Of a DNA stretch of 64,000 nucleotides, positions 43,843 to 50,961 are shown in pieces (the stretch's first letter is position 1; each line of letters begins with the position of its first letter). This DNA comes from Gemmatimonadetes bacterium 13_1_20CM_4_69_16 (GTDB lineage: Bacteria; Gemmatimonadota; Gemmatimonadetes; Gemmatimonadales; GWC2-71-9), in NCBI GenBank assembly GCA_001919865.1, contig MNIR01000056.1, positions 1-64,000 of the forward strand. The letters run 5' to 3'. The notes beneath the pieces are model-generated. The model did not search any database and was not told the DNA's origin. It saw nothing but the letters and a program-made list of their open reading frames with translations. Position numbers and translations under genes: made by a program.

Positions 43843-44154
43843 TCACTCATCGTCGTCATCAGAATGGAAGTGATGGTGGTGATGATGATGGCGGCGGCCC
43901 CACGTCCGGACCACGACCGCACGATCCACGAACAGCGGGTGAGCCGGATTGGGCGGGGGTACGACGATGACCACCGGCCGCCGATAGAAGTACGGGCGAT
44001 AGAAGTACGGCCGTCCCACGACGACGACTCCCGACACGTAAGGCCGCGGAACACCGAACCCGACCGCCACGCTGACTCGCGTCTGTGCGGGGGTGGGGGC
44101 GGCGACCGCCGTGAGCACGAGCAACAGTCCGAATGCCACAACCCACTGTTTCAT
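43843..44154 (-). CDS. Small secreted protein with natural His7 and Asp4 C-terminal tail
   Basis: MKQWVVAFGLLLVLTAVAAPTPAQ signal peptide; C-terminus GRRHHHHHHHFHSDDDDE. Confidence 0.75.
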   Translation of the reverse strand: MKQWVVAFGLLLVLTAVAAPTPAQTRVSVAVGFGVPRPYVSGVVVVGRPYFYRPYFYRRPVVIVVPPPNPAHPLFVDRAVVVRTWGRRHHHHHHHFHSDDDDE

Positions 44155-44309: not shown

Positions 44310-45380
44310 TCAGTCTCCCAAGCTGATGCCGATGTCGCGGGCAGTCGCGATCGTGTCGGAGTCGAGCGGTACGAGCTTGGGCGCGGCGAGGGCTTCGTCG
44401 ATCGGGATCGGGGCGATCGTGGGGGGACGCAGCGCCACCATCGTTCCGAACTTTCCGTCGGCGATGACGCGCACCGCCGCGGCGCCGAACCGCAGACCCA
44501 GCAAGCGATCGAACGTCGTGGGGCTGCCGCCGCGTTGCAAGTGGCCGAGCACCAGCGTGCGCGTCTCCTTGCCGGTCATCTCCTGGATCGAGTGCGCGAC
44601 CTTATCGCCGATCCCGCCGAGGCGCTCGTGCTCGGGGTCGATGAGCGAGACGCTGCCGCCCCGGGGAGCCGCCCCCTCCGCCACAACGACGATGCTGAAA
44701 TGGCGCCCCTCCGCCTCGCGATGACGGATCTTCTCGCACACCTTTTCCATGTCGAACGGGATCTCGGGAATCAGGATCACGTCGGCGGAGCCGGAGATGC
44801 CGGAGTGCAGCGCGATCCATCCGGCGTGGCGGCCCATCACCTCCACGACCATGACGCGCTCGTGGCTCTCGGCGGTGGAGTGAACCTTGTCGATCGCCTC
44901 GGTCGCTGTCTGGACGGCCGTATCGAACCCGAACGTGAGCTGGGTCCCGCCGACGTCGTTGTCGATGGTCTTCGGGACGCCCACGACCGGAATCCCCTTC
45001 TCGCGGAACAGCCGCTGCGCGATGCGGAGCGAGCCGTCGCCCCCGATCGCGATGAGGGCGTCGATGCCCTTTCTTCGAAAGGCCGCGACGAGCTCGTCGG
45101 CCCGGTCATGTTCGATCACGCTGCCGTCGGGGCGCGTCTCGCGCCACCGGAATGGATCGCCGCGGTTGGTCGTGCCGAGGATGGTGCCGCCGAGGTGGGT
45201 GATGCCGCGGACGGCGCCGGCGTCGAGCGCCACGACGCGGTCCTCGTCCAGCAGGCCGTCGTAGCCGCGCCGGATGCCGACACACTCCCAGCCGCGGTGG
45301 ATCGCGGCGAGCACGGCGCCCCGGATCACCGCGTTCAACCCCGGGGCGTCGCCGCCGCCGGTGGAGATGGCGATTCTCAA
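44310..45380 (-). CDS. pfkA: 6-phosphofructokinase
   Basis: IAISTGGGDAPGLNAVIRG, AIGGDGSLRIAQRL, VPKTIDNDVGGT; TTG start overlapping the selenoprotein stop (TTGA). Confidence 0.93.
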   Translation of the reverse strand: MRIAISTGGGDAPGLNAVIRGAVLAAIHRGWECVGIRRGYDGLLDEDRVVALDAGAVRGITHLGGTILGTTNRGDPFRWRETRPDGSVIEHDRADELVAAFRRKGIDALIAIGGDGSLRIAQRLFREKGIPVVGVPKTIDNDVGGTQLTFGFDTAVQTATEAIDKVHSTAESHERVMVVEVMGRHAGWIALHSGISGSADVILIPEIPFDMEKVCEKIRHREAEGRHFSIVVVAEGAAPRGGSVSLIDPEHERLGGIGDKVAHSIQEMTGKETRTLVLGHLQRGGSPTTFDRLLGLRFGAAAVRVIADGKFGTMVALRPPTIAPIPIDEALAAPKLVPLDSDTIATARDIGISLGD

Positions 45381-45616
45381 CGCGCCGGCGGAGCCATCTG
45401 CTGAATCAGGCGCAGCACTTCCCCCGGCTGGGCGTGGCGGCCGAGCGTCTTCTTGGAGAACACGCGCCGGCCGTCGACTTCGACCTCGAACACGCCGCCC
45501 GAGGACTGGATCAGCTTCACGTCCGCGTGCGCGTAGGCCTTGCGGATCTCGGCCGCCAGACCGGCGGCCCGAGGCTCATAGTTTCAGACGACACAGTATT
45601 CGATGGTGACGCGCAT
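45377..45616 (-). CDS. SelW/Rdx-family selenoprotein, 79 aa, with in-frame UGA at codon 11 (Sec)
   Basis: ATG 45616; MRVTIEYCVVUNYEPRAAGLAAEIRKAYAHADVKLIQSSGGVFEVEVDGRRVFSKKTLGRHAQPGEVLRLIQQMAPPAR*; CxxU redox motif; SECIS-like hairpin follows the UGA. Confidence 0.87.
45548..45573 (-). promoter_or_regulatory. Putative bacterial SECIS (bSECIS) element
   Basis: mRNA CUCGG(G)CCGCC-GGUCU-GGCGGCCGAG: 10 bp, one bulged G on the 5' side, GGUCU loop, stem starts 10 nt after the UGA. Confidence 0.8.
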
Positions 45617-45729
45617 AGCGGGTGTGAGTGGCATGGAGTGGTTGCGTAAGGATAGTCGCGCTTGACACGCCACGCTACAGTCCCGAGCTTGCGCGGCATC
45701 TACCCCCCCGAGGACCAGGACCGGCCGGC

Positions 45730-49371: not shown

Positions 49372-50961
49372 ATGACGAAGCTCAGGTGGCTGCTGGCCGT
49401 CGTGGTGCTGCCGACAGGAAGGCTCGCAGCCCAACACGCCAGCCAGTTCGAGGCCGGCGCATTCGGCTCCTATACGCGGTACGACGCCGCCTTCGGCCTT
49501 GCCAACAAGCTCGGTGGCGGCGGCCGGCTCGGCTACTTCCTGGGCGACCTGGTCGGGCTCGAGGCGGACGTAGTGTTCCAGCCCGAGTACACCGTCTCGA
49601 GCGCAGGGACGCCCACCACCCTGCAACCGCTCATCGGCAGCGCCAGCGTAGTCGTCAACCCCGTCCATGGCAGCCGCCTGATGCTCTTCCTGCTCGGCGG
49701 CTACTCGCTGCTCGACTTCGGTTCGCGGGCGCCGTACCACTTCACCGACAACGGCATGCACGGCGGCGCCGGCGTGCGGATCTTTCTCACCGAGCGCGTC
49801 GCCCTGCGCGTCGAAGGCCGCGGCATCTACGTGCCCAGCACGAAGTCCGCCTTCGGAACCAAGACGACCGCGACACATGCCGTCGCAACTGTCGGCCTCT
49901 CGGTGTTCCACCTCGGGGGGCCCGCCAAGGACTCCGACAAGGACGGGGTGCCCGACAAGCTGGACGCCTGCCCCAACACGCCCCTGGGCGCGACCGTCGA
50001 CGCGCACGGCTGCCCCACCGACTCCGACCACGACGGCGTGTACGACGGACTCGACAAGTGTCCCAATACACCGGCCGGGGCCACGGTGGACGCTAACGGC
50101 TGTCCCAGCGACGCCGACTCGGACGGCGTGCCGGACGGCATGGATCAATGCCCCAACACCCCCGCCGGCGTGCACGTGGACGCAAAGGGCTGTCCCGTCG
50201 ACTCGGATGGTGACGGTGTGCCGGACGGCATCGATCAGTGCCCCAACACGCCGCCCGGCGCGACGGTGGACGCCATGGGTTGCCCCGCGGACTCCGACAA
50301 GGACGGCGTACCCGATGGCATCGACCAATGCCCCAACACGCCGGCCGGCGCCCTGGTGGACGCCAAGGGTTGCCCGATGGACTCGGACCTGGACGGCGTC
50401 CCGGACGGCATTGACAAGTGTCCCAACACCCCGGCCGGCACACCGGTCGACGCCACCGGCTGCCCGCTGCCCAAGCAGGTGATCCGCGACTCGGACGGCG
50501 ACGGCGTGCCGGACGACCGCGACAAGTGTCCCAACACGCCGCCGGGCTCGAAAGTGGACGCGAACGGCTGCATCATCCTGTTCCAGCCGGAGGCCGGGCC
50601 CGCCGCACCGGGTGCCCCGCGGCCCACGCTGATTCTGCGCGGGGTCAACTTCGAGTGGGGGCGGTCTGCCCTGACGGGAAGCTCCTACGCGGTGCTCGAC
50701 CAGGTGGCCGGATCGCTGGTCGCCAACCCGGAGATCCGCATCGAGATCGCGGGTTACACCGACAATACGGGGGCGGCGGCGCTCAACGTCCGCCTGTCCC
50801 AGGCTCGGGCAGCCTCGGTCCGCGCTTACCTGGCGCGCAAGGGCGTGGCGCCGGGACGGATGGTGGCGAAGGGGTATGGGGCGAGCGGCTTCATCGCGCC
50901 CAACACCACAACGGCGGGCCGGGCGCAAAACCGGCGTGTGGAGCTCCATAAGCTGCCGTAA
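49372..50961 (+). CDS. OmpA-family outer membrane protein with thrombospondin type-3 repeats
   Basis: DSDxDGVPDGxDxCPNTPxGxxVDAxGCP repeats, C-terminal NPEIRIEIAGYTDNTGAAALNVRLSQARAASVRAYL. Confidence 0.92.
   Translation: MTKLRWLLAVVVLPTGRLAAQHASQFEAGAFGSYTRYDAAFGLANKLGGGGRLGYFLGDLVGLEADVVFQPEYTVSSAGTPTTLQPLIGSASVVVNPVHGSRLMLFLLGGYSLLDFGSRAPYHFTDNGMHGGAGVRIFLTERVALRVEGRGIYVPSTKSAFGTKTTATHAVATVGLSVFHLGGPAKDSDKDGVPDKLDACPNTPLGATVDAHGCPTDSDHDGVYDGLDKCPNTPAGATVDANGCPSDADSDGVPDGMDQCPNTPAGVHVDAKGCPVDSDGDGVPDGIDQCPNTPPGATVDAMGCPADSDKDGVPDGIDQCPNTPAGALVDAKGCPMDSDLDGVPDGIDKCPNTPAGTPVDATGCPLPKQVIRDSDGDGVPDDRDKCPNTPPGSKVDANGCIILFQPEAGPAAPGAPRPTLILRGVNFEWGRSALTGSSYAVLDQVAGSLVANPEIRIEIAGYTDNTGAAALNVRLSQARAASVRAYLARKGVAPGRMVAKGYGASGFIAPNTTTAGRAQNRRVELHKLP
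49929..50577 (+). repeat. Tandem TSP3 calcium-binding repeats (about 7 units)
   Basis: Recurrent gactccgac..gacggcgt..ccggacggcatcgaccaatgccccaacac. Confidence 0.9.

Follow-up and report, generated by a model that had tools for sequence, protein, structure and literature searches.

A predicted SelW-like selenoprotein gene with a conserved in-frame UGA and SECIS hairpin next to pfkA in a Gemmatimonadota bacterium

Results

A selW-like gene with an in-frame UGA adjoins pfkA

The window analysed here, a 64,000-nucleotide stretch from a metagenome-assembled genome (MAG) of 2.8 Mb that is 85% complete, carries on its minus strand a 79-codon coding sequence (45377–45616) recognized from its ORF, its profile matches and its homologues as a selW-like gene of the Rdx family. 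This gene starts with ATG (45616), ends with TGA (45379–45377) and contains a single internal TGA, at codon 11 (45584–45586), so that its product would carry the motif Cys8-Val-Val-Sec11 if the UGA is read as selenocysteine (Sec). It is followed on the same strand by a pfkA-type 6-phosphofructokinase gene (44310–45380; Pfam PFK, E = 3e-110), whose TTG start codon overlaps the selW stop codon (TTGA). Upon re-reading, the coordinates and sequence of the ORF, its single UGA at codon 11 and the TTG/TTGA overlap all proved to be exactly as given in the initial annotation of this DNA. Standard gene calling skips selW because of the in-frame UGA. Another in-frame ATG lies six codons further upstream (45634); since it is not conserved in relatives, we consider the ATG at 45616 to be the better start.

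For the family searches, U was entered as Cys in the query protein. The Rdx domain (Pfam PF10262) spans most of the protein (residues 2–72, E = 1.6e-20, 73.5 bits compared to a cut-off of 22.6), with the CxxU redox motif near the N-terminus (C8-V-V-U11). The NCBIfam models TIGR02174 (CXXU_selWTH; E = 1.2e-16, above the curated cut-off) and NF041051 (SelTWH_Campy; E = 5.2e-30, 103.5 bits compared to a cut-off of 88) were also matched, the latter over its whole length, although its name points to Campylobacterota and the host belongs to a different phylum. The proposed membership of the SelW/Rdx family is thus borne out by matches far above chance and by the CVVU motif. By sequence, the nearest proteins of solved structure are Rdx proteins of the CxxC type, e.g. 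Atu0228 (PDB 2FA8, E = 1.2e-10); Atu0228 and SAV_2001 (3DEX, E = 3e-8) have the same domain and align over nearly their whole length, but they need no SECIS since CxxC replaces the CxxU of the window's protein.

Upstream of selW, a conserved block (TGTCAAGCGCGACTATCCTT; 45648–45667, minus strand) contains a –10-like hexamer, TATCCT (45654–45649). The block is kept in close relatives: just 5' of selW in the window's clade (loci L009–L026) it reads GTGTCAAGCGCGACTATCGTT and ends in a –10-like TATCGT or TATCCT. This region is probably a promoter, and the closeness of the hexamer to the ATG suggests that the selW mRNA has a short leader or none at all. The divergent gene upstream of selW encodes a GAF-MCP signalling protein; TGTCAA, also found in the block, is the reverse complement of the –35 element TTGACA and could serve this gene.

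The selW–pfkA pair is conserved within the order

Of the 29 relatives' loci examined (L095–L123), which come from three families of the order, 27 have pfkA as the gene immediately following selW. When the distance between the two genes was measured in 28 pairs, the window's included, 14 were found to overlap, in the forms TTGA, ATGA, TAATG and ATGCGCATAG, and another 7 to be at most 10 nt apart, the remaining 7 showing wider gaps. In more distant relatives, a Shine-Dalgarno sequence is mostly present before selW and weak or missing before an overlapping pfkA, as one would expect if the two genes were translationally coupled; within the clade of the window, neither gene is preceded by one. It is a reasonable reading of the conserved overlap that selW and pfkA are translationally coupled, and this conserved, often overlapping pair may constitute a new feature. 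A second, more distant phosphofructokinase homologue is present elsewhere in the host genome (G000:C19:20062–21018, L141; 164 bits).

The arrangement lends itself to a bolder interpretation, which is compatible with selW encoding a selenoprotein and goes beyond it: whenever Sec is lacking, ribosomes would stop at codon 11 and miss the pfkA start, so that in this Gemmatimonadota order the selW UGA would act as a selenium-sensing valve on glycolysis, with pfkA mainly reached after Sec insertion. The adjacency in three families and the short or negative distances between the genes speak for it, as does the scarcity of strong Shine-Dalgarno sequences before those pfkA starts that overlap selW, the window's start being moreover a TTG. 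Against it stand the wider gaps, some with a Shine-Dalgarno sequence of their own before pfkA, the second phosphofructokinase homologue of the host and the possibility of an independent pfkA promoter. Furthermore, bacterial genes often remain neighbours over evolution without being regulated in this way. We therefore regard the valve as unlikely.

The host genome encodes a Sec-decoding system

The initial annotation had proposed a search of the host genome for the Sec machinery, and had named the absence of selB, selC or selD as evidence against a selenoprotein. All three genes were found: a tRNA-Sec with a UCA anticodon (78.7 bits) on a contig other than the window's, selB (the match covers the C-terminal part of the model), and selD, which has its own in-frame UGA at the catalytic position (HGAG-U-ACK; G000:C25, L127 around 3321, minus strand) followed by a strong hairpin, SelD itself being a selenoprotein. 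Within the 64-kb window, neither an Rfam scan at gathering thresholds nor ARAGORN gave a match, the latter for tRNAs.

The fourth gene sought, selA, had no match in the 85%-complete host assembly. A genome of the same genus (G001) carries selA within a stretch of 20 kb (L124). The left flank of L124 aligns with host contig C40 up to the contig's last base (14762 of 14762), and its right flank with host contig C82, again up to the last base (28890 of 28890). The two contigs are thus separated by about 4.2 kb of unassembled DNA, exactly at the expected selA locus, and we infer that the host selA falls in this gap. Of the 41 genomes searched, 29 gave a selA match above the cut-off, including three of the four from the same genus. 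Close to the end of C40 there is a sequence of about 46 bp, possibly a dispersed repeat, that is found again in many of the MAG's contigs.

Three relatives (G031, G033 and G035, 98–99% complete) have neither selA nor a selW-like gene, and their tRNA-Sec scores are below the cut-off, at about 46 bits, which is the level of tRNA-Ser in the host genome. The fact that the selW-like gene is missing where tRNA-Sec and selA are missing fits a dependence on Sec decoding, and it argues against the UGA being decoded in another way, i.e. by genome-wide reassignment to Trp or Cys or by near-cognate readthrough. So do the presence in the host of tRNA-Sec (UCA), selB and selD, and the alignment of position 11 with Cys in the Cys forms of the protein. 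Besides, TGA terminates translation in the host, since selW ends with TGA at the point where the gene of some relatives has TAG or TAA. Genome-wide reassignment was rejected on account of this termination and of the Sec machinery, and decoding of the codon by any of these other routes is extremely improbable.

The UGA codon and a SECIS hairpin are conserved across phyla

A scan of a genome collection of 84,980 species yielded 61 homologous loci, spread over Gemmatimonadota, Acidobacteria, Krumholzibacteriia, Chloroflexi, Actinomycetota, Proteobacteria, Planctomycetota, Sulfurospirillum and others. Codon 11 is TGA in 59 of them and TGC in the other 2, both of the Nitrospira group; position 11 is accordingly U or C in all 61, and Cys8 is invariant (61/61). 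In a separate search of relatives, the Rdx gene was present in 33 of 41 genomes, each time with an in-frame TGA (33/33). Instead of the degraded downstream sequence that would have spoken for a genuine stop, we observed purifying selection past the UGA: pN/pS is 0.15 for these codons among 22 close sequences, which indicates that this part of the gene is translated and constrained.

The initial annotation had also pointed to a SECIS-like hairpin, and one is present at 45551–45569 (minus strand). It consists of a 7-bp stem, in which nucleotides 18–24 after the UGA are paired with nucleotides 30–36, and of a 5-nt apical loop, GGUCU (45562–45558), at a distance of 21 nt from the UGA. The bSECIS model specifies a loop of 3–9 nt with a G in the first two positions, an upper stem of 4–16 bp, a UGA-to-loop distance of 16–37 nt and a minimum free energy of –7.5 kcal/mol or lower (PMC13188914); the hairpin agrees with all of these, with –20 kcal/mol over the 50 nt. 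The fold energy of the single sequence is no better than that of shuffled sequences (z = –1.2) in this GC-rich DNA. It is therefore the comparative evidence that establishes the hairpin.

The TGA forms align without gaps over about 40 nt past the UGA. At least six of the seven stem pairs can form in 64 out of 81 distinct sequences, and the second loop position is G in 80 of the 81; the outermost pairs are missing in several distant homologues, and the hairpin is not formed in the two TGC loci. The closing pair (18–36) joins two third codon positions and occurs in all four Watson-Crick combinations. Where both codons are fourfold degenerate, it is Watson-Crick in 48 of 53 cases compared to 23.2 expected by shuffling (P = 1e-5). 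When changes were mapped by parsimony on the protein tree, both sides of this pair changed on 11 branches, 10 of them from pair to pair; pair-preserving double changes were also counted at three inner pairs (6, 3 and 2), compared to at most 2 for control column pairs. In addition, synonymous change is reduced in the SECIS codons (pS of 0.25 versus 0.50 in the rest of the gene). A chance hairpin is ruled out by this compensatory change.

That the TGA is a real stop, reflecting a pseudogene or a sequencing or assembly error in a Cys codon, is what an internal stop within an otherwise intact ORF of a MAG might suggest for this gene viewed singly, but the idea is effectively refuted by the recurrence of TGA at the same codon in nearly all loci, over many phyla, and in every relative with the gene, with the downstream purifying selection and the covarying SECIS also against it, and retains almost no probability.

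We conclude that the locus is, with a probability of about 97%, a SelW/Rdx-type selenoprotein gene with Sec decoded at the UGA, Sec insertion itself being deduced from sequence. The product would be a protein of about 79 residues with a thioredoxin-like fold and a C-x-x-Sec redox centre, and may act as a thiol-selenol oxidoreductase. In the proposed mechanism, SelA would make Sec on the tRNA with selenophosphate supplied by SelD, and SelB, docked on the hairpin (45569–45551) just 3' of the UGA in the mRNA, would bring tRNA-Sec(UCA) to codon 11; selW would presumably be translated together with the downstream phosphofructokinase gene.

Discussion

In the Sargasso Sea survey of 2005, the SelW-like Sec proteins, with their CXXU motif and bacterial SECIS, outnumbered every other family (48 genes; PMC1088965), and a 2006 survey of bacteria counted 10 SelW-like proteins, Cys forms being very few in Sec-using organisms (PMC1794560). 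Since the Sec-containing family has thus long been known and is abundant in bacteria, the window's gene is a further member of it. It has in common with the proteins of the Sargasso Sea, Geobacter sulfurreducens, Desulfotalea, Symbiobacterium and others (PMC1088965, PMC1794560) the CXXU motif, the Rdx/SelW domain, a bacterial SECIS that comes directly after the UGA and has a small loop containing G, and the prevalence of Sec over Cys. By contrast with them, it belongs to a Gemmatimonadota host and adjoins pfkA, which it often overlaps in relatives.

Our literature search, which covered open-access papers, returned no paper on selenoproteins of Gemmatimonadota, nor any on a selW–pfkA link or on the coupling of a selenoprotein gene to pfkA. 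The present analysis documents a Sec system, together with a gene skipped by gene calling, among soil bacteria of a large uncultivated group, and the selW–pfkA pair would provide a first testable physiological context for a bacterial SelW.

Two other genes of the window deserve mention. The first (43843–44154, minus strand) encodes a small, probably secreted protein with no Pfam match, whose tail consists of seven His and then a series of acidic residues (HHHHHHHFHSDDDDE). The second (49372–50961, plus strand) encodes an OmpA-like protein with many calcium-binding-type repeats of the form DxDxDGVPDxxDxCPNTP.
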